Source: Lysobacter spongiicola DSM 21749 (GTDB lineage Bacteria > Pseudomonadota > Gammaproteobacteria > Xanthomonadales > Xanthomonadaceae). Taken from it: a stretch of 64,000 bases of DNA. Below, piece after piece: positions 41,027 to 53,809 of this stretch (positions are counted from its first letter, which is position 1; every line of letters starts with the position of its first letter). The notes beneath the pieces are model-generated. The model saw nothing but the letters and a program-made list of their open reading frames with translations, did not search any database and was not told where the DNA came from. The position numbers and the translations under genes were made by a program. The stretch lies in the NCBI RefSeq assembly GCF_900167055.1, contig NZ_FUXP01000001.1, positions 434,001-498,000 on the forward strand. Reading direction: 5' to 3'.

Positions 41027-42826
41027 TCAGCGCGGCATCGCGAGATGCCGCCGCTCAAGCGCCGCACCCGCCCCGCGTGGCACGGTTTCGATCACTGCAT
41101 CGCCTGGCATCGGTGCCCCCTCCTGCAGGTGGGCCCAGGTGCGATCCAGTGCCTCGTAGACATACGGCAGCAGCGGCAGGTAGTGCGCACCGTAGGCCGG
41201 CAGCCCGAGGAAGGCGTCGAAGTGCTGCGCATTGCGCACCTGCCAGTACCGGACGTCGGCTCCGGCCGCCCGGGCCGCGGAAACATATGGGGCGCTGGTG
41301 AACGCCGCGGGTATCAACCCGTCATCGAGCCCGTGGATCACAGTGACCGGCGCCCCGGTGCGCGGTGACGTAGCGCGGGCGGCGGCGATGCCTTCCCGCA
41401 CCCGCCGCGCTTCAGCGGAATCCCCCTCCCACATGGTGCGCAGGCACTGCAGGCCAGCCAGCGGACGTGCGAGATCGCCCTCCGCCGCGATGATGCCCAC
41501 GCCTGCGCCGGGCGGGATACCACTGCCTTCGGCCGCCCATGCCGCCCGCTCCGCCGCCGTTGCCGCGCGCGGCGTGCCATCGGCACCCTGCACTGCGAAA
41601 TGGAAGCCACATGGGTGGTCTTCCGGCCCAAAGCGTCCATAGGCCGAGGCGTAGGTCACGGCCACCGCACGCCACAGGTCGAAACCGACGCTGATGGAGC
41701 CTGCGCGCAGCGCGGCATCGGTCCAGCCGCCTGCACGGAGCGTTTCGTAAGCCGACTGTTGCTGTGCCTCGAGCGTTTGTCCGGACACCAGCCCTGCCTC
41801 TGAAAGCGCGGCGCAGTGGGCGGGGACAGTGGGCATCGGCGGGATGCCCAGCACCGGCAGCGCACACGGCATCAACAGGGCGGCCTCCGTGGTGTAGTCG
41901 TAGAGTGGGCGCGCGCCGTCGACCTGCACGTTGGGTGCAGCGGCGACCACGGCGTCCAGCCAGTCACCCTCCAGTTCGGCCGCCCGCAGCACCGCGCCGC
42001 CGCCATTGGAGATGCCCACGGCGATCACGGTGGTGTTGTCCGGCCGGAACGGCTGCGCGTCCGGGAACGCCTCACCCAGTGCGTGCATCGCGAACCGCGC
42101 CGCCTGCTCCACGTGGCGGCCCCAGTCGGCTTCGGGGTTGTCCCCGGAATGCGAGTGTTTCACAGCGACGCCGCTGCCGGTGGCCGGGTGGGGCCGGAAC
42201 GCGAGTGCCGCGTCCGCTCCGCCGATCGTGCCGTCCAGCTGTACGCCCTGCCCTGCATCGAGATCGAAATAGTCGGTGCCGGCGCCCTTGTCGGTGTACG
42301 CCACCGCGCAGCCCTTCGGCAGTGCCCAGGGGCCTGCAACCGCGATACCGCCCAGCACCCCGCGCGAGCCGGAAGCCGGCGCCACCACGACGCAGCGCCG
42401 CTGCCGGTCGAAGTTGTCCGGGACCTGCACCAGCACCCGGTGCGGATGCGTGGCGCCGGGCACCGTGGCCAACGCCTGGTACTCGCGTCCGGGAACCGGT
42501 TCCACTGTGCCGTAAACGTCCGCATAGCCGCCGCCCGGGGCGAGGTCGGCGATGCCCCGCCAGTTGCTCCAGATCGCGCGTCGGCGGAGCTCCCCGGGCG
42601 TAGGCGCAACCGCATCGGCGAAAGCCGGCGGTGACATGGCGCGCAGGCCTTCGAGCCCGAGCCCGGCCGTCAGCAGGTCATCGGTTCCGCGATGCGTCGT
42701 GGCGCGGATCGGCTGAAAGGCCGATGCATCATCCATGGCCCGGTCCCGGGAGGGAGTGGTGGCGCAGCTGGCCAGCAGGGCAGTGGCTGCGAGCGCGGTC
42801 AGCGACATATGTAGTGGCATCTTCAT
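41027..42826 (-). CDS. D-(-)-3-hydroxybutyrate oligomer hydrolase, lipoprotein
   Basis: A 599-residue serine hydrolase of the 3HBOH family, which cleaves short 3-hydroxybutyrate oligomers, breakdown products of polyhydroxybutyrate (PHB), to monomer. The nucleophile is Ser273 in AVGISNGGGAVLRAAE; other family stretches are HSHSGDNPEADWGRHVEQAA and VIHGLDDGLIPAAFTSAPY. A lipobox (TALLASC, Cys21) predicts an outer-membrane or periplasmic lipoprotein, so the substrate probably comes from outside. It is divergent from a CrbR-like regulator across 87 bp. Assignment rests on motif recall, without alignment. Confidence 0.85.
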   Translation of the reverse strand: MKMPLHMSLTALAATALLASCATTPSRDRAMDDASAFQPIRATTHRGTDDLLTAGLGLEGLRAMSPPAFADAVAPTPGELRRRAIWSNWRGIADLAPGGGYADVYGTVEPVPGREYQALATVPGATHPHRVLVQVPDNFDRQRRCVVVAPASGSRGVLGGIAVAGPWALPKGCAVAYTDKGAGTDYFDLDAGQGVQLDGTIGGADAALAFRPHPATGSGVAVKHSHSGDNPEADWGRHVEQAARFAMHALGEAFPDAQPFRPDNTTVIAVGISNGGGAVLRAAELEGDWLDAVVAAAPNVQVDGARPLYDYTTEAALLMPCALPVLGIPPMPTVPAHCAALSEAGLVSGQTLEAQQQSAYETLRAGGWTDAALRAGSISVGFDLWRAVAVTYASAYGRFGPEDHPCGFHFAVQGADGTPRAATAAERAAWAAEGSGIPPGAGVGIIAAEGDLARPLAGLQCLRTMWEGDSAEARRVREGIAAARATSPRTGAPVTVIHGLDDGLIPAAFTSAPYVSAARAAGADVRYWQVRNAQHFDAFLGLPAYGAHYLPLLPYVYEALDRTWAHLQEGAPMPGDAVIETVPRGAGAALERRHLAMPR

Positions 42827-42862
42827 GCGTCGACCTTAGCAACCGGACGGCGCCCTGCCATC

Positions 42863-42875
42863 GTACCTTCGTACC
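42863..42875. promoter_or_regulatory. Shared motif GTACCTTCGTACC, candidate regulator site
   Basis: In the divergent spacer between the hydrolase and the response regulator gene. A near-copy (GTACCTTCGGACA, 11 of 13 identical) lies in the TonB receptor/permease spacer at 49563-49575. A binding site for the local CrbR-like regulator is an inference. Confidence 0.4.
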
Positions 42876-42913
42876 AGTCCGGCGGTGCCGGTGCTTGCTA
42901 CTCTGGCAGCCCG

Positions 42914-43578
42914 ATGCCGACCCTCCTGATCGCCGACGACCACCCCCTCTTCCGCGCCGCACTGCGCGGTGCGGCCGCCGATGCCGTGGCCGACCTGGTG
43001 GTACTGGAGGCGGACTCGCTTGATGGCGTGCTGTCGATCCTCGAATCCGAGACCGACATCGACCTGGTGCTGCTGGACCTGCACATGCCCGGCAACCATG
43101 GCCTGGCCGGACTGGCCGCGATCAGGGCCCAGCACCCGGGAGTCGCGGTGGTGGTGGTATCGGCCAACGACGATCCGCGCGTGGTGCGGCGGCACTCGAT
43201 CACGGTGCGGCCGGCTACCTGCCCAAGAGTTCGGGACTGGACGAACTGCGCGATGCGATCCGCGCCGTGCTGGCGTGCGAGCAATGGCTGCCGGCGACCC
43301 TGCGCGCGGCGGTGGCGCGCACCGAAAGCTCCTCCTCCGATGCCGACCTGGCTGCACGGCTGGCGAGCCTGTCGCCCCAGCAGTTCCGGGTACTGACCTT
43401 CGTCGCCCAGGGCCTGCTGAACAAGCAGATCGCCGACCGGCTGGACGTGCAGGAACGCACGGTGAAAGCGCACCTCTCGGCGATCTTCGAACGGCTCGGC
43501 GTACGCAACCGCACGCAGGCAGGCGTGATCCTGCGCGAGCTGGAGCTGAGCGATCCGGCGCGGCAGATGCAGGGCTGA
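42914..43578 (+). pseudogene. LuxR-type response regulator (CrbR/ErdR-like), split by a 1-base frameshift
   Basis: The receiver domain is read in one frame from 42914 (LLIADDHPLFRAAL, phosphoacceptor Asp55 in LLDLHMPG, VVVSANDDPRVVRR) and then breaks. From about 43192 the next frame continues it exactly (ALDHGAAGYLPKSSGLDELR), through to the LuxR helix-turn-helix (LSPQQFRVLTFVAQGLLNKQ, VQERTVKAHLSAIFERLGV) ending at 43578. One base is missing in GCGGCGG/CACTCG near 43187-43193. No slippery heptamer is present, so this is a mutation or a sequence error. Intact, it would be about 221 residues and the likely partner of the adjacent transporter-kinase. Confidence 0.87.
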
Positions 43579-43619
43579 TCCGAGCGAGCGTGTTCGCGCG
43601 GGATGTATGTGCAACTGAT

Positions 43620-43695
43620 GTAGGAGCGGCTTCAGCCGCGATCGGATTGTTGATCGGGCGTCCGATTCCATGATCGCGGCTGAAGCCGCTCCTAC
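43620..43695. repeat. REPIN 7
   Basis: A 76-bp pair of standard arms in the convergent spacer between the response regulator and the sensor kinase. Its right arm ends 3 bp into the region just beyond the kinase stop codon. No tail module. Confidence 0.92.
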
Positions 43696-46600
43696 AGATG
43701 CGACGGATCCTCCAGGGCCGTGGCGGCGGCCGCCACCGGCCGCACCTCGCTCGCTGCCAGCAGCCGGTCCAGGACGGACTTCAACGCCAACGGCTTGACC
43801 GGTTTGGACAGCAACGAGAATCCGGCCTCCATCACCGCCCGTCGCACCGCCTGGCCACCGTCCGCGCTCATCACCAGGGTCGGGCGCTGTCCATGGGCCG
43901 CGGCAAGCGATTCCGCAAGGGCCACGCCGGTGTCACCATCGTCCAGGTGGTAGTCGAACAACCAGAGAGCGGCCGGCATGCGACGCATCTGCGCATGGGC
44001 GGCTTCGCTGCCCGAGGCCATGGCGACGTCGCAGCCCCAACCGCGCAATACGCTGCCAAGGGCCGCCAGTGCCTGCGGATCGTTGTCCACCACCAGCACG
44101 GGTAGCCCCGGCAGGCCGCGCCCTCCCCTGCCGGCCGCACTCGCCACCGGCGCCGGTACGCGCGGTACCCGCACGGAAAAAACGGTGCCCCGACCCAGCG
44201 TGCTGCGTACCGTCAGCGGCGCCTCCAGCAGCTGTGCAATGCGGTCGGCGATCGACAGCCCCAGGCCCAGCCCTTCGCCCGGCGCATCATGCCCGCGACG
44301 GAATTCCTCGAAGATCGCCTCGCGCATGTGCTCGTCGATGCCCGGCCCGGTGTCATGGACCTCGACCGCCAGTCCGCTGCCGTCGCGGCGCACACCCAGC
44401 AACACCGTTCCGCGCGTGGTGTAGCGAACCGCGTTGGCCAGGAAGTTCTGCAGCACGCGTCGCAGCAACTGGGGATCGCTGTGTACCCAGGCCGAGCTCG
44501 CGACGGAGCGGAAACGCAGGCCCCGGGCCGCGGCAATGGCACCGAACTCCGAGCACAGCGGGTCCAGCACCTCGGCCAGCGGGAAATCCCGCTGCTGCGG
44601 CACCAGTCCGCCCGCCTCGAGCCGGGACATGTCGAGCAGGCCTGTAAGCAGGTCGCCGGTGGAGTCCAGCGCGCCGCTGACCTGCGACAGGATCTCGCGC
44701 TGGCGCGCGTCCAGTTGGCCGGACAGCGAATCGGTGAAGAGCTGGGCCGCGTGCAGGGGCTGCATCAGGTCGTGCCCGATCGCGGCGAGGAAGCGGCTCT
44801 TGGCGTCGTTGGCACGTTCCGCCTCGCGCTTGGCGATCTCCAGGTCGGTGGTGCGTTCCTCGACCCGCTGTTCAAGGGTCTCGTTGGCCAGCAGCAGTCC
44901 AGCCTCGGCACGACGGAATGCGGTGACATCGGTGAAGGTCGCCACGAAGCCGCCGCCCGGCATCGGATTGCCGCGGATCTCGATGATGCTGTCCTGGCCG
45001 CCCGCAGGGTCCGGCAACACCCGCTCGGTGAGGTGCGGAGTACCTGCGCGCATGAACGCCAGGCGCCTTTCAAGCGCGCGCTCGAGGTCGCCACGCGGCG
45101 GCACCTGCAGCAACGCCCATCGCGACAGGTCGGCGATCGGCCGCCCCACCTGGAGCAGGTCCGCCGGAAACCCGAACAGCTCGGCATAGCGGCGGTTCCA
45201 TGCCACCAGCCTGAGTTCGGCATCCACCACACTGATGCCCTGGCTCATGTTCTGCAGCGCTGCCTCCAGCACGCGCTGGTTGAAGCGCAGGTCGGCCGAC
45301 GCCTCGCCGACGATCGCCGCCACCGCGTCCAGGTCGCCCGCCTCGCGCCTGGCGGCATCCAGCAGGACCCGCGCGGAAGCCGAACCCAGCACGGCCGCAA
45401 GTTCGCGCTCGACCTGGGCTTCCACCCGGCCCGGCACTGCACCCGGACCTTCGATGCCATGCAGCAGTTGCGCCACCCGTTCCCGCGGCAGGAACCTCAG
45501 CCCCGCATCCCGCAGGGTCTGCGCGTCCAGACCGCGGATGGCCCGGCGCGGCGTGTCGCGCCGATGGATCGCCACCAGCACCGTTACAAGGGTACCGAGG
45601 AACAGGCTGGCACCGACCGCGCGTCCCAGCCGGCTCCATCCGGTCAGCCCGAACAGTCCCTCCGGCGACAGCCAGCGCCAGCCGAACGGCCCCTCGTGCA
45701 ACCAGGCCACCGGCACGCCACGCAGCTCGATCATCGTCGGTAGCAGCAGCACCCAGGCCCACGCGGCGAAGCCCACGGCCACGCCGGCCGTCGCGGCACG
45801 CGCCGGCGTCTGCGGCCGCCACACCGCGAAGGCCAAGGCCGGCGCCAGCGTAGCGAGCGCGGAGAATGACACCGCGCCGACGTCCGCCAGCGCCTCGCTG
45901 CCGGCAACGATGCGGCTGTAGCCCCAGGCCAGCAGCATGATCACCACGATCCCCGCCCGCCGCAGCGCCAGCACGCTGCCGCGCAGGTCGATACCGTCGT
46001 TGCGTGACCAGGCGCCGCGTAGCAGGCCCGGCGCGAACCAGTGGTTGCCGATCATCAGGCTCAGCGTCAGCGTGCTGACCACCACCATGCCGGTCGCCGC
46101 GCTCAGGCCGCCGAGGAACGCGAACAGCGCCAGCCCTTCACGCCCCTGCGACAGCGGCAACGCGAGCACGTACAGGTCCGAGGGCACGGTGTCGCCCAGC
46201 AGCGCCGCGCCCGCGGTCGCCAGTGGCAGTACCGGCAACGCGATCAGCACCAGGTACAGGGGAAACTGCCAGCGCGCCGTGCGGACGTCACGCTCGTCCC
46301 TGCACTCCACCACGCCGACGTGGAACTGGTGCGGCAGGATGAACATCGCCAGGGCGCCCAGCAGCACCAGCGGGATGAATCCCCCGGCCGCCGGGCCAGC
46401 TGGCACCCCGCTCGCCACGGCCGGTGCCGCAGCGAGGCTCGTGTCCAGCCCGAACCAGACGAAGCCGCCGATCGCCAGCATCGCCGCCAGCTTGAACACC
46501 GACTCGAAGGCCATCGCCAGCACCAGCCCGCGGTTGTGCTCGGTGGCGCTGGCCCTGCGGGTGCCAAAGAGCATTGCGAACACCGCCATGGCCAGCGCGA

Positions 46601-47090
46601 CGTACAGCGCACTGTCCTGCCAGGCAGGCACCGACCCGCCCTCCCCGGCCCGCGACGTCAGCATGGAGAAGCTCATCGCCACGGCCTTGAGCTGGAGCGC
46701 GATGTAGGGGATCAGGCCGAGCGCCGCCACCAGCGTGACCGTCGCCGCCAGCCATGCATCCTTGCCCAGCCGGGTCGCGATCAGGTCGGCTAGCGACGTC
46801 GCATTGGTCTCACGCGCGAGCCTGACCAGCTTGACCATGAAACCCACGGCTAGGGCGTAGAGCAGGATCGCGCCGAGGAAGGTGGGCGGCAGGGGCCAGC
46901 CGTAGCGGGCGGCCTGGGTGACGGTGCCGTAGAACGTCCACGAGGTGCAGTGCACGGCCAGCGAGAGGGCGTACACGTGACGCCAGTGCCGCGACCAGCC
47001 TGTCGGCCGGCGCTCGGCGAAAAGCGCGGCGCCGAACATCAGCCCGAGCCAGGCGAGGCTGGCCAGGGCGACGACTGTGAAGTTCAGCAT
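43692..47090 (-). CDS. Hybrid sensor histidine kinase with sodium/solute symporter domain (CrbS/MxtR-like)
   Basis: An 1132-residue membrane sensor. Residues 1 to about 500 form a multi-helix sodium:solute symporter-like domain (SLAWLGLMFGAALF, AVHCTSWTFYGTVTQAA). Then come a PAS domain (about 610-720, NMSQGISVVDAELRLVAWNRRYAELFG split over the segment), a histidine kinase with the phospho-His in FLAAIGHDLMQPLHAAQ (about residue 772), an ATPase domain (NFLANAVRYTT about 882, DTGPGID about 915) and a C-terminal receiver (LFDYHLDDGD, Asp about 1045). This layout matches CrbS/MxtR, which with CrbR/ErdR controls acetate and ethanol use. It converges on the broken regulator gene. Confidence 0.93.
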   Translation of the reverse strand: MLNFTVVALASLAWLGLMFGAALFAERRPTGWSRHWRHVYALSLAVHCTSWTFYGTVTQAARYGWPLPPTFLGAILLYALAVGFMVKLVRLARETNATSLADLIATRLGKDAWLAATVTLVAALGLIPYIALQLKAVAMSFSMLTSRAGEGGSVPAWQDSALYVALAMAVFAMLFGTRRASATEHNRGLVLAMAFESVFKLAAMLAIGGFVWFGLDTSLAAAPAVASGVPAGPAAGGFIPLVLLGALAMFILPHQFHVGVVECRDERDVRTARWQFPLYLVLIALPVLPLATAGAALLGDTVPSDLYVLALPLSQGREGLALFAFLGGLSAATGMVVVSTLTLSLMIGNHWFAPGLLRGAWSRNDGIDLRGSVLALRRAGIVVIMLLAWGYSRIVAGSEALADVGAVSFSALATLAPALAFAVWRPQTPARAATAGVAVGFAAWAWVLLLPTMIELRGVPVAWLHEGPFGWRWLSPEGLFGLTGWSRLGRAVGASLFLGTLVTVLVAIHRRDTPRRAIRGLDAQTLRDAGLRFLPRERVAQLLHGIEGPGAVPGRVEAQVERELAAVLGSASARVLLDAARREAGDLDAVAAIVGEASADLRFNQRVLEAALQNMSQGISVVDAELRLVAWNRRYAELFGFPADLLQVGRPIADLSRWALLQVPPRGDLERALERRLAFMRAGTPHLTERVLPDPAGGQDSIIEIRGNPMPGGGFVATFTDVTAFRRAEAGLLLANETLEQRVEERTTDLEIAKREAERANDAKSRFLAAIGHDLMQPLHAAQLFTDSLSGQLDARQREILSQVSGALDSTGDLLTGLLDMSRLEAGGLVPQQRDFPLAEVLDPLCSEFGAIAAARGLRFRSVASSAWVHSDPQLLRRVLQNFLANAVRYTTRGTVLLGVRRDGSGLAVEVHDTGPGIDEHMREAIFEEFRRGHDAPGEGLGLGLSIADRIAQLLEAPLTVRSTLGRGTVFSVRVPRVPAPVASAAGRGGRGLPGLPVLVVDNDPQALAALGSVLRGWGCDVAMASGSEAAHAQMRRMPAALWLFDYHLDDGDTGVALAESLAAAHGQRPTLVMSADGGQAVRRAVMEAGFSLLSKPVKPLALKSVLDRLLAASEVRPVAAAATALEDPSHL

Positions 47091-47172
47091 GGCCGGAGGA
47101 TAACGCGGCGCGAATAAATTGCGGCGGTGGGAGTCGCAGGCTCGCCACCGCCGCCAGACCGGGGGTCACCAG

Positions 47173-49458
47173 TCAGAAGTTGTACCGAACGCTCAGGTAG
47201 TAGTTGCGGGGCATGCCGTAGTACGCGGTCTGGATGTTGCCGACGCTGGAGAATTCCTGGCCGTCGGTCATGTACACCTCGTCGCCGAGGTTGCGCACGC
47301 CGGCGCGTACCTGCCAGTCGTAGGTCGGCGAGTCCCACACGCCGTACAGGCCGAACACGGTGTAGGCCTCCTGCATCAGGTTGGGACGGTTGTCGACCGA
47401 CAGCCAGGTATCGTCGCGGTGCGAGACGTCTCCACCCAGGGTCAGGCCACTGCCGCCGGCCAGGTAGAAGGTGTGCTGGAGCGCAACTCGTGCCGTCCAG
47501 TCCGGCGAGAAAGGCACGTGGTCGTGCAGGTTCGACAGGGCCGGGTCGAGTTGCACCCGCGGGTCGACGAACTCGTCATAGCGGGCGTCCATGTAGGACA
47601 GCTGGCCGGAAAGCCGGGTGCCCTCGCCCAGCAGCGCCGCACCCTCGAACTCGATCCCGCTGATCTTAAGCGCCGCTGCGTTGAGCACCGGGAACGAAAA
47701 GGTCGGCGTCGGCGAGTCGGGATTCACGACCTCCGACACCCGCGCCTGGAAGTCCTTGTACTCGCTGTGGAAAGCAGCGACGTTGCCCTGCAGCCGGCCT
47801 CCGTCGGAACGTGCCTTCAGGCCGGCCTCGTAGGTCCACACGAACTCCGGATCGAACTGGGCGCTGCGGGTCTCGGCGACGGAGTTGGCGCGGCCGTTGA
47901 AGCCGCCGGACTTGAAGCCCCGGTTGGCGGATACGTAACCCATGAAGTCGTCGCTGAAGGCCTTCTGCAGGCTCAGCGAAGGCGTCCAGGCGTCCCAGTT
48001 GGCCTCGCCCTCGAAGGCGACCGTCTCGTTGATCGCTTCGAACAGCGGCCCCCAGAAGGTGCTGGTGGTGCGCCAGTAGTCCTTCTTGTCCTTCGAATAG
48101 CGCAGGCCGGCCGCCAGCGTCCAGGTGGGGGCGAACTCCCACGTGACATGGGCGAACGCGGCCATGCTGGTGGTTTCGAGATCGTCGTCGATCGTGCGCA
48201 GGAAGGTGATCGGCGCGCCTGCGAAGGCGAACAGGTCGTCGGCGTAGGCCTCCTGGTAGGACGGCACCTTCTCGTTCATGTAGTACAGGCCGTAGATCGC
48301 CTGCAGGTTGCTGCCGTTGTCGTACTGCAGCTGGAATTCCTGGCTGGCCTGGGTCTGGTCGATCTCCACCAGCACGTCGCCCAGTTCCCATTCCGAGGCG
48401 TCGATGTCGATGAAGGAGCTGGTCTCCAGCGAGCGCACCGCGCTGATGCTCTTGAAGCGCCATTGGCTGTTGAGATCCCACTCCACGTTGAGGCTTGCGC
48501 CCTGGTGATTGAGCGACTGGCCCTGGCCGGGAGCGAAGGAGGTGCGGGTCTCGAAATCGTATTCGCTGCCGTCGGGCTGGTGCAGGACCACCGGCCCCAG
48601 CGCGAGGTCGGTGCGCACCAGCGGCGCGGTCGGCCGGCCCAGCGTCAGCGGCGCCTCCTGGTCCATGTAATCCAGCGACAGCGTGGCAGTGACCGCGTCG
48701 GTCGGGCGGAAGGCCAGCTTGGCACGCAGGACACCGGTCTCCTCGCCGTTGTAATCCTCGCCGGTGGTGGGGTCCTCCACGTAGCCGTCGCTCTGCAGCC
48801 ATGCGCCCGACAGGCTCATCGCGAAGCGGTCACTGACCGGCATGCCGACGTACCAGCGGCCTTCCATGCGGCCGAAGTTGCCCGCCGTCAGCTCGACCGC
48901 GCCATTGGGATCGTCGAACGGGTTGCGGGTGGTGATCTTGATCGCGCCGCCGGTGGAGTTCTTGCCGTACAGGGTGCCCTGCGGTCCGCGCAGCACTTCG
49001 ACCTGCTGCACGTCGAACAACGAGAACAGCGCACCGTTGATCCGCGAGTAGTAGACATCGTCCACATACATGCCGACGCCCGGATCGAAGGTCTGCAACG
49101 CGTCGGGCTGGCCGATGCCGCGGATGAAGACGTTCACCGAGTTGGAGGACCCGCGGCCCTGCACGATGTTCATGTTGGGCACGGCGCCCTGCAGGCCGTC
49201 GACGTTGCTGGCCTGCAGGTTCTGCAGGTCATCCTCGCTGAAGGCGCTGACCGCGACCGGAACATCCTGGATGGATTCGACCCGGCGCCGCGCCGTGACC
49301 TCGACCTTGTCCAGCGACACCGCCTGCCGATCCGCAACGTCCTGTTGCCCGGCAGGCTGGCCGCCGGATGTCGTCGACTGGATGGCATCGTCCTGCGCCC
49401 AGGCAACGGGCGCGAGCAATGCGCACATGATGGCGACGCTCAACTGCTTGCGGTACAT
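47173..49458 (-). CDS. TonB-dependent receptor
   Basis: A 761-residue outer-membrane, TonB-energised importer. It has a signal peptide (LSVAIMCALLAPVAWAQ), a TonB-box-like segment (LDKVEVTARRR), a plug domain (VNVFIRGIGQPDALQTFDPG, LFDVQQVEVLRGPQGTLYG) and a 22-strand barrel ending in the aromatic YLSVRYNF. It is of the FyuA/CirA-like class common in xanthomonads. The start at 49458 begins the signal peptide. It is divergent from a GntP permease gene. 3-Hydroxybutyrate oligomers as ligand are an inference from the neighbours. Confidence 0.93.
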   Translation of the reverse strand: MYRKQLSVAIMCALLAPVAWAQDDAIQSTTSGGQPAGQQDVADRQAVSLDKVEVTARRRVESIQDVPVAVSAFSEDDLQNLQASNVDGLQGAVPNMNIVQGRGSSNSVNVFIRGIGQPDALQTFDPGVGMYVDDVYYSRINGALFSLFDVQQVEVLRGPQGTLYGKNSTGGAIKITTRNPFDDPNGAVELTAGNFGRMEGRWYVGMPVSDRFAMSLSGAWLQSDGYVEDPTTGEDYNGEETGVLRAKLAFRPTDAVTATLSLDYMDQEAPLTLGRPTAPLVRTDLALGPVVLHQPDGSEYDFETRTSFAPGQGQSLNHQGASLNVEWDLNSQWRFKSISAVRSLETSSFIDIDASEWELGDVLVEIDQTQASQEFQLQYDNGSNLQAIYGLYYMNEKVPSYQEAYADDLFAFAGAPITFLRTIDDDLETTSMAAFAHVTWEFAPTWTLAAGLRYSKDKKDYWRTTSTFWGPLFEAINETVAFEGEANWDAWTPSLSLQKAFSDDFMGYVSANRGFKSGGFNGRANSVAETRSAQFDPEFVWTYEAGLKARSDGGRLQGNVAAFHSEYKDFQARVSEVVNPDSPTPTFSFPVLNAAALKISGIEFEGAALLGEGTRLSGQLSYMDARYDEFVDPRVQLDPALSNLHDHVPFSPDWTARVALQHTFYLAGGSGLTLGGDVSHRDDTWLSVDNRPNLMQEAYTVFGLYGVWDSPTYDWQVRAGVRNLGDEVYMTDGQEFSSVGNIQTAYYGMPRNYYLSVRYNF

Positions 49459-49562
49459 GCGGTGACTCCCCTGGTCTGTTTCCGGATTGCAGGCGGGACC
49501 ATGGCGACATGGGCGGCCCTTCATGGCGCACAGACTAGGGGGGCCGCCCTCCCCCCGCCGCT

Positions 49563-49575
49563 GTACCTTCGGACA
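49563..49575. promoter_or_regulatory. Shared motif GTACCTTCGGACA, second copy
   Basis: In the 178-bp spacer between the TonB receptor and permease genes. It matches 42863-42875 at 11 of 13 positions. A possible minus-strand -10 (TAGTCT, 49537-49532) for the receptor gene lies about 30 bp away, a spacing suited to an activator site. Confidence 0.4.
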
Positions 49576-49636
49576 ATGCCCCCGCCGGCCGCGCACCCCG
49601 AGACTTCCACGCCATCGATGCGTGCAGGAGTGGGGG

Positions 49637-51040
49637 ATGGAGTTTCTGATCGTGCTGGCGGCGCTGGCCTTCCTGATGTTCGTGGCCTACCGCGGCTACA
49701 GCGTCATCCTGTTCGCGCCTGTCGCCGCACTGGGCGCGGTGCTGCTGACCGATCCCACCCTGGTCGCGCCGATGTTCACCGGCCTGTTCATGGACAAGAT
49801 GGTCGGCTTCCTGAAGGCCTACTTCCCGGTGTTCCTGCTGGGCGCGATCTTCGGCAAGGTCATCGAGCTGTCGGGCTTTTCCAAGGCGATTGTTGCCGCC
49901 ACGATCCGGCTGTTCGGTGCCAGCCGGGCGATCCTCTCGATCGTGGTGGTCTGCGCGATGCTCACCTACGGCGGCGTCTCGCTGTTCGTGGTGGTGTTCG
50001 CGGTCTACCCCTTCGCCGCCGAGCTGTTCCGCCAGAGCAACATCCCGAAGCGGCTGATCCCCGGCACCATCGCGCTGGGTGCCTTCACCTTCACCATGGA
50101 CGCCCTGCTCGGCACCCCGCAGATCCAGAACATCATCCCGACCACCTTCTTCGGAACCGACACCTGGGCGGCGCCCTGGCTGGGCACCATCGGCGGCATC
50201 TTCATCCTCGTGGTCGGGCTTGCCTACCTGGACTGGCGGCGACGTGCCGCGCTGGACAAGGGAGAGGGCTACGGCGATCCGGCCAAACTGCTGAACGAGC
50301 CGACGCCGTTCGCGGGCGGCAAACTGGCCAACCCGCTGATCGCGGTCCTGCCGCTGGTCATGGTGGGCGTGACCAACAAACTTTTCACCCACTGGATTCC
50401 CGCCTATTACGGCGAGAGCCATTCGTTCGATCCGGCTGTCATCGGGGACACCGCACCCGTGGTGCAACAGATCTCTTCGGTGACCGCGATCTGGGCGGTG
50501 GAAGGCGCACTGCTGGTCGGCATCCTCACGGTGCTGGCATTCGCGTGGAAGCCGGTAATGACCACCTTCGCCGAAGGCACCCGTACCGCCATCGGCGGCG
50601 CGTTGCTGGCAGCGATGAACACCGCGTCGGAGTATGGCTTCGGCGCGGTCATCGCGGCCCTGCCCGGCTTCCTCGTCGTGGCCAATGCGCTGGGCGCAAT
50701 TCCCGATCCATTGGTCAACGAGGCGATCACCGTCACCGCGCTGGCCGGCATCACCGGCTCGGCGTCCGGTGGCATGAGCATCGCACTGGCCGCGATGGCC
50801 GATACCTTCATCGCGAACGCGAATGCCGCCGGCATCCCGATGGAGGTGCTGCACCGCGTCGCGGCGATGGCCTCCGGCGGCATGGACACGCTGCCCCACA
50901 ACGGCGCGGTCATCACCCTGCTGGCCGTCACCGGCCTGACCCATCGACAGGCCTACAAGGACATCTTCGCGATCACCATCATCAAAACGCTGGCGGTCAT
51001 GGTGATCATCGGCGTGTTCTACGCGACCGGGATCGTCTGA
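49637..51040 (+). CDS. GntP-family permease
   Basis: A 467-residue inner-membrane transporter with about 12-14 hydrophobic segments and GntP-family signatures (LTYGGVSLFVVVFAVYPFA, GALLAAMNTASEYGFGAVIA, GITGSASGGMSIALAAMAD, GGMDTLPHNGAVITLLAVT). GntP relatives carry gluconate, fructuronate or D-3-hydroxybutyrate. The neighbouring oligomer hydrolase favours hydroxybutyrate here, but that is inference. GGAG precedes the ATG at 49637. It ends 12 bp before the convergent porin remnant. Confidence 0.92.
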   Translation: MEFLIVLAALAFLMFVAYRGYSVILFAPVAALGAVLLTDPTLVAPMFTGLFMDKMVGFLKAYFPVFLLGAIFGKVIELSGFSKAIVAATIRLFGASRAILSIVVVCAMLTYGGVSLFVVVFAVYPFAAELFRQSNIPKRLIPGTIALGAFTFTMDALLGTPQIQNIIPTTFFGTDTWAAPWLGTIGGIFILVVGLAYLDWRRRAALDKGEGYGDPAKLLNEPTPFAGGKLANPLIAVLPLVMVGVTNKLFTHWIPAYYGESHSFDPAVIGDTAPVVQQISSVTAIWAVEGALLVGILTVLAFAWKPVMTTFAEGTRTAIGGALLAAMNTASEYGFGAVIAALPGFLVVANALGAIPDPLVNEAITVTALAGITGSASGGMSIALAAMADTFIANANAAGIPMEVLHRVAAMASGGMDTLPHNGAVITLLAVTGLTHRQAYKDIFAITIIKTLAVMVIIGVFYATGIV

Positions 51041-51052
51041 GCCGCGGGTGGA

Positions 51053-52093
51053 TCAGAAATCCAGCTGGCCCCAGATCCCGACTTCCGTGGCGCGGAGCTG
51101 CCGGGAGGGCGACGCGCTCTCCTGCCGCTTCCCGACCAGGGCGATGCGGAGGTGCGGTGACTTCCGCCATTCCAGGCCGACCTGGCTGTAGCGGTCCTTG
51201 CGCCGCGGGTCCTGCCGGGTGCTCGGGTCGGCCCGATCGTGCCGCGCAAACAGCGCGAAGTCGGGCCGGATCCGGTAGCTGCCCCAGGCGGACCACCCAC
51301 GCGCCGCGTCGGGCAGTGGCGAGGTCACCCTGTTCCAGTTGTCCGCGCGGACGAACTGCGCACCCAGTCGAAACCGCTCATCCGTCCACGCCACGACCGC
51401 GGTCGATCGCCGCGCGGTGTGGTACCTGGTTGCCGTGCCGTCGGCGAGCGCACGGGTGCCGCGGTAGCCACCGACGGCCAACGTCAGGCCATCACCCGAC
51501 CACCCCACCCGCGCCTCGTAATTGACGCGGCCGTCGGTGTCCGGTCGCTTGAACCCTGCGCCGGTGACCGCCGACAGCGCCCAGTCCACCCCACCGCCGG
51601 CGCGCCCGTTCAGGTGCAGGCCCCAGTCCGCCGGCGCACCGACACCGAGCCGGGATACCAGCCCGGGGTCTACGTAGCGATAGCCATTGAGACCGGCCAC
51701 GAACTATATCCACGGGGTAGGCGCACTGCCCAGCCGGAGCGTGGCACGATCGGCAAACCGTCGCTGCAGGTAGGCATGGCGGAGCCACAGGTCGGTCGGG
51801 TCACTGTTCCGGGTCCAGTTGATGTCGGTGGTGGCATGAATCGACCAGCGCTCGTCGATCCGATGGTCGAGGTTGATGTAGAAGCGCTTGAGCTCCATGG
51901 CCACCCCTTCGTCCCGGCTGGAAGTCCCCTCGCGCCGCAGGTCGCTCGCATTGACGAACAGCCGGGCCGACACGGAGGTATGCGGGGGCGGTTCGGTCGC
52001 CGCATCCCCCTGCTGGGCACGCGCCGGAACGCTGATGGCCAGTATCGCGGCAACAATGGCCACGCGCCGCCTGGGCCATGGACATTCCGCCAT
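51053..52093 (-). pseudogene. Outer-membrane porin-like gene with an in-frame amber codon
   Basis: A signal peptide (RRRVAIVAAILAISVPARAQ) and early beta-strands (KRFYINLDHRIDERWSIHAT, ADRATLRLGSAPTPWI) run to a TAG at 51706-51704. In the same frame the protein goes on at once (FVAGLNGYRYVDPGLVSRLG) through more strands to a terminal Phe (EVGIWGQLDF). Both halves belong to one porin of about 346 residues; only one codon separates them. A single substitution to TAG, a suppressed stop or a sequence error are the options. It follows the TsdA-like cytochrome gene; the ATG at 52093 was chosen, and a TTG at 52120 is an alternative. Confidence 0.82.
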
Positions 52094-52120
52094 CGAATTA
52101 CCGGTGCGCTCCGCCTCCAA

Positions 52121-53095
52121 CTACTGCGCGCCCTGGCCCAGCAGGCGCCCATCCACCTCCAGTCCGTAGAGCGAATGCGGACTGTCGTGGAACTTGGCAC
52201 GCGTTTCAGCCAGGTCGCCGGTATAACGCGGATCCTGCGGGCGCTCGTGTGCATTCATGTACATGGCCACGTCCCAGGCCTGCTGGTCGCTCAGGGTGTT
52301 GCCGCGCCCAAGCGGCATGTTCGCCTTGATGAAGCCGGCCGCGTTGTCGAGCTGGTGCATGCCCGCACCCCAGTTGAACGAGTCCCCGCCCCACAAGGGC
52401 GGGAACACGTACTTGCCCGCGACCTGTTGGCCTTCGCCGTTCCCGCCATGGCACAGGGCGCAGTTCTCGGCGTAGACCTGCTCGCCGCGCGCGTAGTCGG
52501 GCGGCTCCGGTGGCTCGAAGTCCTTCGCGTAGCCTGCGCCTTCCATCGCCGCGCCCACCGGGACACCCTGCGCCATCCAGAACGCATAGGTTTCCAGCGC
52601 CACCAACACCTCGTCGCCCTGCTCGGGCGGCGTACCGTCCATGCTGTAGCGGAAGCACCCCTGGAGGCGCTCCTGGAAATTGTTCACGTGCTGGTTCTTG
52701 CTGCGGTAGGCGGGGTAGCGGCCCCAAGCACCCCATAGCGGGGCGGAGTCTGGCAGCAGGCCCGCATCGATATGGCAATTGCCACATGAAAGGCCGTTCC
52801 CGACGAACTCCGGTGCATGGGTCCCGGTGTCGACGAAGATGTCGCGCCCACGCCGCACCATGTCGCCGAACGGGCCTTCGGGAATGTCATCGTGGTCGGG
52901 GGGCACGAACCCCGCGGTCTTGGCCGCCGGTTGTCCATCCTGCGGGACGCCGCCGGTTGCCCCGGCGGTCGGCGGCTCGCGCTCCACCTCGACGCGGTCA
53001 TGCTTGTATGCCGACCTCGGGGGGCGGATGTCTTCGCAGGCCACGAGGGCCAGGCTGGCGGCAATGCAGGCCAAACGGAGGACTGTCCGGTTCAT
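52121..53095 (-). CDS. Dihaem cytochrome c, thiosulfate dehydrogenase TsdA-like, lipoprotein
   Basis: A 324-residue lipoprotein (lipobox LALVAC, Cys20) with two class I cytochrome c domains: haem motifs CGNCH (104-108) and CALCH (212-216). The stretch QGCFRYSMDGTPP (Cys147) matches the TsdA motif whose Cys is an axial haem ligand in thiosulfate dehydrogenase, and YPAYRSKNQHVN is also TsdA-like. TsdA oxidises thiosulfate to tetrathionate, or the reverse. The 4-bp overlap with the preceding cytochrome gene and the ccm operon nearby support a working c-type electron chain. Direction and substrate are unproven. Confidence 0.88.
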   Translation of the reverse strand: MNRTVLRLACIAASLALVACEDIRPPRSAYKHDRVEVEREPPTAGATGGVPQDGQPAAKTAGFVPPDHDDIPEGPFGDMVRRGRDIFVDTGTHAPEFVGNGLSCGNCHIDAGLLPDSAPLWGAWGRYPAYRSKNQHVNNFQERLQGCFRYSMDGTPPEQGDEVLVALETYAFWMAQGVPVGAAMEGAGYAKDFEPPEPPDYARGEQVYAENCALCHGGNGEGQQVAGKYVFPPLWGGDSFNWGAGMHQLDNAAGFIKANMPLGRGNTLSDQQAWDVAMYMNAHERPQDPRYTGDLAETRAKFHDSPHSLYGLEVDGRLLGQGAQ

Positions 53096-53748
53096 TGCGT
53101 TCCCCCCGCCGGTACCGGCGACTGCCGCGCGAACCAGTCGGCCACCTGCTCCACTTCCTCATCGCTGAGTTCAGCTGCCAGGTGGCGCATCAGCTCCAGC
53201 GGATCGTTGGATCGGGTGCCTTCGCGCCATGCCTTGAGCTGGGCGACGATGTAGCCGGCCGGCTGCCCCGCGATCGCCGGGAAATCCTCGCCGACCCCGA
53301 TGCCGCCCGGGCCGTGGCATTGCACGCATGCCGGCACCTGGCGGTTCCAGGCCCCCCGCAATGCGATGCGCGCGCCCACGCTGCCATCCTCTCCGGGTAC
53401 CGGCCCACTCGCCGCGGCAACCGGCATGTCGGCGAAGTAGTTGGACATAGCGACCCATCCTTCCTCCCCGAGCGCCTCGGCGATGGGTTGCATGACCGCA
53501 TTCTCGCGGCGTCCATTGGTGAAGTCCTCGAGCTGCCTGCGCATGTACTCCGCATTGAGCCCTGCCAACCGCGGAAATGTCCCGGTGCCCGCACCATCGG
53601 AGCCATGGCAGGTGGCACAGGCCACGATCGCCCCATCGCCCTTTGACGCGATGATTTCAGGCGAAGCGGTTTGCGCCGAAGCACCGTGGGCAAGGAAGGC
53701 GCCTGCGGCAATGAGCGTCATTGGCAACCATTTTCGGGTCCGGGGCAT
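53092..53748 (-). CDS. Dihaem cytochrome c4-like protein (TsdB-like)
   Basis: A 218-residue periplasmic protein with a signal peptide (MTLIAAGAFLAHGASAQ) and two CxxCH haem motifs, CATCH (44-48) and CVQCH (141-145), each followed by a cytochrome c4-type fold (FPRLAGLNAEYMRRQLEDFT and FPAIAGQPAGYIVAQLKAWR). A c4-like TsdB encoded beside TsdA acts as its electron acceptor in other bacteria, which fits this pair. The ATG at 53748 was preferred over the GTG one codon earlier. It overlaps the TsdA-like gene by 4 bp. Confidence 0.9.
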   Translation of the reverse strand: MPRTRKWLPMTLIAAGAFLAHGASAQTASPEIIASKGDGAIVACATCHGSDGAGTGTFPRLAGLNAEYMRRQLEDFTNGRRENAVMQPIAEALGEEGWVAMSNYFADMPVAAASGPVPGEDGSVGARIALRGAWNRQVPACVQCHGPGGIGVGEDFPAIAGQPAGYIVAQLKAWREGTRSNDPLELMRHLAAELSDEEVEQVADWFARQSPVPAGGTQ

Positions 53749-53809
53749 CACGTCGGTCTCCTGGCAGGCGTACGCAACAGCGGCAGTTGTCGTTCAATCA
53801 TTGGATGAT

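Follow-up and report, generated by a model that had tools for sequence, protein, structure and literature searches.

In this work we have examined a cluster of five genes in the window, a stretch of 64,000 nucleotides from the genome of Lysobacter spongiicola DSM 21749 (3.1 Mb in 31 contigs). The cluster was originally predicted to serve the uptake and sensing of 3-hydroxybutyrate (3HB) and its oligomers. All five genes named in that prediction, for a hydrolase, a response regulator, a hybrid kinase, a TonB-dependent receptor and a permease, were found in the window and in the divergent layout first described, the regulator gene being broken by a change of frame; the observation is partly confirmed and its interpretation partly supported. 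The new part of the finding is regulatory: the kinase and regulator of the locus are paralogues of the CrbS/CrbR pair that is linked to acs, and they are accompanied by a GTAC repeat of their own. The features of the locus are collected in Table 1.

Table 1. Genes and predicted sites of the locus, with positions in the window
Feature	Position	Strand	Basis
Hydrolase (HBOH), 3HB-oligomer hydrolase family, probably exported lipoprotein	41027..42826	-	PF10605 match
GTAC-type inverted repeat 1, regulator/hydrolase intergenic, predicted site of the locus regulator	42861..42876	.	dyad scan and pattern
LuxR-type response regulator RR2, ErdR/CrbR paralogue, frame-broken	42914..43578	+	two open reading frames matching NF041830
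CrbS2, CrbS-type SLC5 hybrid histidine kinase, locus paralogue	43692..47090	-	Pfam domains, PDB 10ED homology, tree
TonB-dependent receptor, minority type for its position	47173..49458	-	PF07715 and PF00593
GTAC-type repeat 2, receptor/permease intergenic	49561..49576	.	pattern match
Inner-membrane permease, probable 3HB carrier	49637..51040	+	linkage to 3HB dehydrogenase, predicted fold

The hydrolase belongs to the 3HBOH family, as had been proposed: its residues 19-587 match the Pfam model PF10605 at 437 bits, the cut-off being 27. A lipobox-like motif is present near the N-terminus in 62 of 80 relatives, and S273, D502 and H535, which are invariant in alignments of 33 and of 81 sequences, form a candidate catalytic triad. 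The solved folds nearest to its structure model (predicted local distance difference test, pLDDT, 88.9) are alpha/beta-hydrolase esterases, among them feruloyl esterase, tannase and MHETase; the E-values are good and the template modelling (TM) scores low, so that the model speaks for the fold class alone. The receptor, taken from its best start at 49458, contains plug and barrel domains above their cut-offs, in agreement with the prediction of a TonB-dependent receptor. It is 62-72% identical to the receptors of eight loci, and the other 47 receptor-bearing loci are nearer to a second type that is 31-35% identical to that of the window (fragments excluded), which suggests that the receptor alone was replaced. 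The closest named relative (L002) also carries the other type, at 34% identity.

The assignment of the permease to the GntP family had to be given up. No Pfam model matched the permease at an E-value of 10, including PF02447 (GntP), to which E. coli GntP as a control scores 552 bits, and a profile comparison with E. coli GntP gave a probability of 0.9%. GntP is rather a name carried by annotated homologues: among the best 25 of 104 records matched, which are 68-75% identical over 96% of the length, 14 are called "GntP family permease" and the other 11 have no listed gene there. The structure model, of medium quality (pLDDT 69.6), resembles DASS/TRAP-type transporters, with a fold like that of the ion transporter superfamily. 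Outside the Lysobacteraceae, four of the five plasmids inspected among the 104 records have a homologue of the permease adjoining 3HB dehydrogenase: in Azospirillum together with a 3-oxoacid CoA-transferase, in Cupriavidus, in Klebsiella with CoA-transferase and thiolase genes, and in Variovorax with acetoacetate decarboxylase. This linkage, seen within the family as well, indicates that the permease probably carries 3HB. It had been asked whether the permease groups with families acting on other substrates; by linkage, its partner gene points to 3HB, and the permease does not match the gluconate model at all.

The partnership of these genes was studied in relatives. Of 149 Lysobacteraceae genomes, 108 have the hydrolase and 107 the permease, weak and partial matches counted. 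The test set beforehand for the predicted co-conservation came out in its favour: the two occurred together in 104 genomes and singly in seven (hydrolase only in four, permease only in three), and 38 genomes had neither (Fisher p 2.6e-27, relatedness ignored). These counts, like those of the repeat over 60 genomes given below, were compiled by hand from listings. The loci compared are the best 80 of 359 relatives, the nearest named ones by hydrolase identity being Lysobacter arseniciresistens, Lysobacter sp. A03, L. antarcticus and L. concretionis. Most were cut 10 kb to each side, so neighbours that are missing may lie outside. Where at least 9 kb was available on the regulator side (69 loci, L075 included), the regulator was present in 67 loci, the kinase in 57, the receptor in 53, the permease in 48 and all four in 47. 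The arrangement itself varies: kinase, receptor and permease lie on the opposite side of the hydrolase in the Arenimonas-type loci L075 and L081, and the distance between hydrolase and permease grows to 71 kb, 143 kb, 554 kb and 2.2 Mb in four genomes. L075 and L081 also encode, between receptor and kinase, an extra hydrolase-like protein that matches Esterase_PHB in part (L075:5300-6361, L081:15127-16242). Four Stenotrophomonas loci (L062, L067, L071, L078) have an extra 1.4 kb in that interval, which in L062 encodes a MaoC-like dehydratase that may resemble PhaJ, as well as an alpha/beta hydrolase.

Within the family, too, the locus is linked to 3HB dehydrogenase. The gap between regulator and hydrolase exceeds 400 bp in 29 of 77 loci, and every one of these gaps holds this gene, whose model scores above cut-off in 102 of the 149 genomes. 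L. spongiicola has its own copy, on another contig, at 442 bits (above the curated cut-off). The predicted 3HB substrate therefore draws support both from the dehydrogenase inside the relatives' loci and from its place beside the permease outside the family.

The kinase contains PAS, HisKA, HATPase and REC domains. Although Pfam does not recognise its symporter half, this N-terminal half shows clear homology to the SLC5 portion of CbrA, a transceptor of Pseudomonas (PDB 10ED; E 3.7e-47, and 3.5e-87 by profile; queries ended at residue 520), which bears out the predicted hybrid kinase with a symporter domain. PDB 10ED is the entry for the SLC5 domain of CbrA, and the part of PMC13022988 available places CbrA Lys196 in the Na2 site region; by our own count in the alignment, Lys200 of the kinase pairs with this residue, and it is invariant in 15 sequences.

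Which pair, then, goes with acetate metabolism? In all 16 genomes sampled, acs is adjacent to an ErdR-like regulator gene and a second CrbS-type kinase is present, which in 12 of them is encoded together with acs and the regulator within 15.5 kb or less; the locus kinase was also found in ten of the 16. The window's genome has both pairs, with the second kinase on contig C28 and acs and its regulator on contig C30. A tree of 23 locus kinases and 16 acs-linked kinases, picked for spread, places the locus copies in one group and the acs-linked copies in another (support 100/100 and 100/99); the tree is unrooted and has long branches for its two outside rows. Fixed differences also separate the regulators, three of them around the presumed recognition helix. 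The NCBIfam cut-off of 390 for ErdR is reached by no gene in 60 Lysobacteraceae genomes, including the acs-linked ones. The kinase and regulator of the locus are most plausibly a copy of the acetate (CrbS/CrbR) system that was re-dedicated; the duplication may have started from the acetate side, although the tree, being unrooted, gives no direction. The link to two-carbon (C2) metabolism that had been drawn from the CrbSR-type pair is only indirect, because a separate pair accompanies acs and the locus has a promoter element of its own.

The regulator gene of the window is not a single open gene. The receiver half (42914-43396) and the helix-turn-helix half (43267-43578) are in different reading frames, and the change falls near position 94 of the ErdR model NF041830. 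Both halves match this model, so the ErdR/CrbR-like character foreseen for the regulator was retained, but not its integrity. A frame of at least 205 residues without a stop is found in 74 of the 77 relatives that have a regulator match; the three exceptions are at a contig edge (L027), in an assembly whose kinase and receptor matches are fragmentary too (L028), and a partial match in a metagenome-assembled genome (L050). Beside the split gene, the kinase, the hydrolase and both predicted sites look intact.

Evidence for a separate promoter element came from a scan of promoter regions for paired triplets. TAC-N4-GTA, picked as one of the best-scoring dyads, occurs in 70 of 80 hydrolase upstream regions, compared with 0.67 expected from shuffles, and a related GTAC-type site is located between receptor and permease. 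The consensus YNGTACNWWNGKACNR has three matches in the window's genome, two at the locus promoters and one ahead of an NfuA-like gene (named by eye). Of 96 distinct matches of the GTAC pattern in 60 genomes, 61 sit 34-228 bp before the hydrolase (29) or the permease (32) and 35 lie elsewhere; the expressions and the pattern had been modelled on sites found earlier, and there is overlap between the 60 genomes and the loci used. Among the 43 genomes with the hydrolase there are 26 matches elsewhere (0.60 per genome), compared with 9 in the 17 that lack it (0.53), and hits on both strands number 133 and 12 in the same two sets. Both sites are kept in the four genomes in which hydrolase and permease are far apart (G048, G040, G013, G022), and L060, which has the hydrolase and lacks regulator and kinase in the locus, has no site. 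The acs genes differ: among 30 acs loci returned from 60 genomes (L114-L143), the GTAC repeat is upstream of none, whereas the published acetate motif is upstream of ten, 147-191 bases before the matched start. That count comes from a fixed expression and is independent of the acetate-motif matrix, which was built from nine acs sites and four published ones and is circular for those nine. At best this matrix gives 2.8 and -0.6 for the two upstream regions of the locus, under the shuffled 95% level of 7.4. The region upstream of the genome's own acs (L131) contains neither motif. Genome G029 has the locus twice (L207 and L208), each time with hydrolase, kinase and permease, and the repeat was matched only at the L208 copy. 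The acetate (ACTU) motif was rejected as a candidate for the locus, its two matches in the window (up to three mismatches) lying outside the locus and being no more than chance would give.

We consider it likely that the locus is a utilisation system for 3HB, and probably for its soluble oligomers, under its own two-component system. Oligomers would cross the outer membrane through the TonB-dependent receptor and would be cut in the periplasm by the lipoprotein hydrolase, as its family, signal and triad imply; the permease would then import 3HB, which the dehydrogenase encoded elsewhere in the genome would oxidise to acetoacetate and which a nearby class III polyhydroxybutyrate (PHB) synthase may re-store. 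The transporter-like domain of the kinase may read the supply of 3HB or of a close product. The kinase would act through its partner regulator, which is predicted to bind the GTAC repeat at two promoter regions, one serving the hydrolase together with the dehydrogenase or the regulator and the other the permease and the receptor. It is from the comparison of sequences that the gene partnership, the paralogy and the predicted set of sites at two promoters emerge. More tentatively, the locus might be dedicated to polyesters, with the receptor importing PHB oligomers, the hydrolase acting in the periplasm, the permease carrying 3HB and the kinase directly sensing 3HB, all this having arisen by duplication of an acetate sensor and a change of regulator and DNA site.

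Several observations weigh against the proposed 3HB system. The genomes and loci are related, so the counts are not independent events. In the window's own genome the regulator is broken, and the locus is therefore probably no longer inducible there, unless the frame change is an assembly error. The receptors at this position are not orthologous throughout; with two types found there, the receptor is the least secure part of the proposed mechanism. The strict pattern marks the hydrolase in 29 of the 43 genomes that have it and the permease in 32 of 42; no repeat was found upstream of the hydrolase in L064, L065, L069, L070 and L072, which retain kinase and regulator, nor was any match found near the 3HB dehydrogenase of the window's genome, on its other contig. 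Counted over the whole of the 60 genomes, the pattern gives fewer hits than its reversed control (145 against 259 on both strands), and the evidence from the repeat is therefore positional. The permease of G022, the genome with the distance of 2.2 Mb, is just 39-41% identical, and the homologue in Mycetohabitans, the fifth plasmid inspected, is not beside 3HB dehydrogenase. Finally, of four distant plasmid members of the hydrolase family the two inspected, in Pseudomonas luteola and Microvirga (about 33% identity), have AtuA and citrate- or tricarboxylate-type transport genes next to the hydrolase, so the family may act on other esters.

Could the locus instead serve the turnover of the cell's own PHB store? 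Scavenging had been favoured over storage on the ground that neither a dehydrogenase nor a PHB synthase was present in the window, and this argument is lost, since the genome has both. Weak class I synthase matches near the hydrolase led us to the class III genes; no class I polyhydroxyalkanoate synthase scores above the cut-off in the 149 genomes, four being near it. PhaC (551 bits) and PhaE (202 bits) of L. spongiicola exceed their curated cut-offs; they are encoded 10.3 kb beyond the window, at a distance of about 31 kb from the hydrolase, which means that monomer taken up could also enter the store. In relatives, the hydrolase is followed on the same strand by phaE/phaC in 40 of 67 loci, mostly at 0.7-1.2 kb. 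Elsewhere, oligomer hydrolases and 3HB dehydrogenase take part in breaking down intracellular PHB, as titles cited in PMC7830162 describe. Hydrolase, dehydrogenase and synthase might then be one storage-cycle module, with permease and receptor recapturing leaked monomer. We regard this as rather unlikely: the lipobox-like motif of most hydrolases points to export, whereas the store is cytoplasmic, and the repeat marks the promoters of hydrolase and permease/receptor, with none of its three matches in this genome near phaEC. An extracellular depolymerase of the cell's own was considered as a source of oligomers for the proposed 3HB system; the genome has one Esterase_PHB protein (150 bits), on another contig, and that family is too broad to say.

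The distant plasmid homologues of the hydrolase, together with the feruloyl esterases, tannase and MHETase among its nearest folds, would also fit an action of hydrolase, receptor and permease on another hydroxy acid or ester, such as longer hydroxyalkanoates or an unrelated ester. This is unlikely, because the gene that keeps recurring, in the locus as well as next to the permease outside the Lysobacteraceae, is that of 3HB dehydrogenase. That the pair is an ordinary CrbS/CrbR of C2 metabolism, neighbouring the other genes by coincidence or on account of the acetyl-CoA that 3HB yields, is very improbable: family and architecture are shared, and acetate genes are under CrbS/R in Pseudomonas and Vibrio according to the part of PMC5715377 available, but acs has another pair with it, the tree fully divides the two kinase groups, and the locus promoters lack the acetate motif as the 30 acs upstream regions lack the repeat.

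Next to the permease, a gene at 51053-52120 seems to be interrupted by an in-frame stop (two open reading frames on the same strand and in the same frame), and one of its pieces has a sub-threshold match to porin O/P (E 0.2). Just past the locus, at 52121-53751, there are two cytochrome-c-like genes, the first with a SoxA/TsdA-like domain and the second called by eye.

If the proposed role is true, 3HB would be a further nutrient for SLC5/STAC kinases. Those named for such systems in the available parts of PMC9100948 and PMC5715377 are acetate, histidine (glucose in Azotobacter) and pyruvate. No published link of an SLC5-type kinase to hydroxybutyrate was found in the literature searched, which was available in part; PMC8871633 and PMC5615194 hold the terms SLC5, histidine kinase and hydroxybutyrate, and in the portions available the last refers to the PHB polymer or to titles in the reference list, with no kinase link. 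A natural pair of paralogues with distinct neighbours and DNA sites would offer a route to the residues of the transporter-like domain that set the nutrient, and would show how kinase, regulator and site diverge together. The locus also predicts an outer-membrane receptor for polyester oligomers, of relevance to how biodegradable plastics are broken down, and it suggests a way in which Lysobacteraceae may compete for PHB that other bacteria release.

Among known systems, the locus is closest to the CrbS/CrbR (MxtR/ErdR) acetate system, with which it shares an SLC5-type hybrid kinase, a LuxR-type regulator and an inverted-repeat site upstream of the presumed targets. It differs in that its pair forms a separate paralogous group, its half-sites are GTAC instead of GAC/GTC, and it is linked to 3HB genes and not to acs/actP. 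RpuS/RpuR and CbrA/CbrB likewise have an SLC5-type kinase tied to one nutrient, pyruvate and histidine respectively, whereas the nutrient predicted here is 3HB; RpuS is likened by description and not by sequence, and RpuS/R controls a transporter gene, as stated in the part of PMC9100948 available. The hydrolase may be compared with extracellular 3HB-oligomer hydrolases such as that of Pseudomonas sp. A1. We take the A1 enzyme to belong to PF10605, and the two would have in common the Pfam family, probable export and a serine-hydrolase-like motif. Unlike the A1 enzyme, the hydrolase has 599 residues against a model of 688 positions, is a predicted lipoprotein and is linked to its own sensor and receptor. 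Lastly, the SusC/TonB-type carbohydrate loci also unite an outer-membrane receptor, a hydrolase, an inner-membrane permease and a sensor in one locus, but they act on glycans, whereas the substrates predicted here are polyester oligomers.

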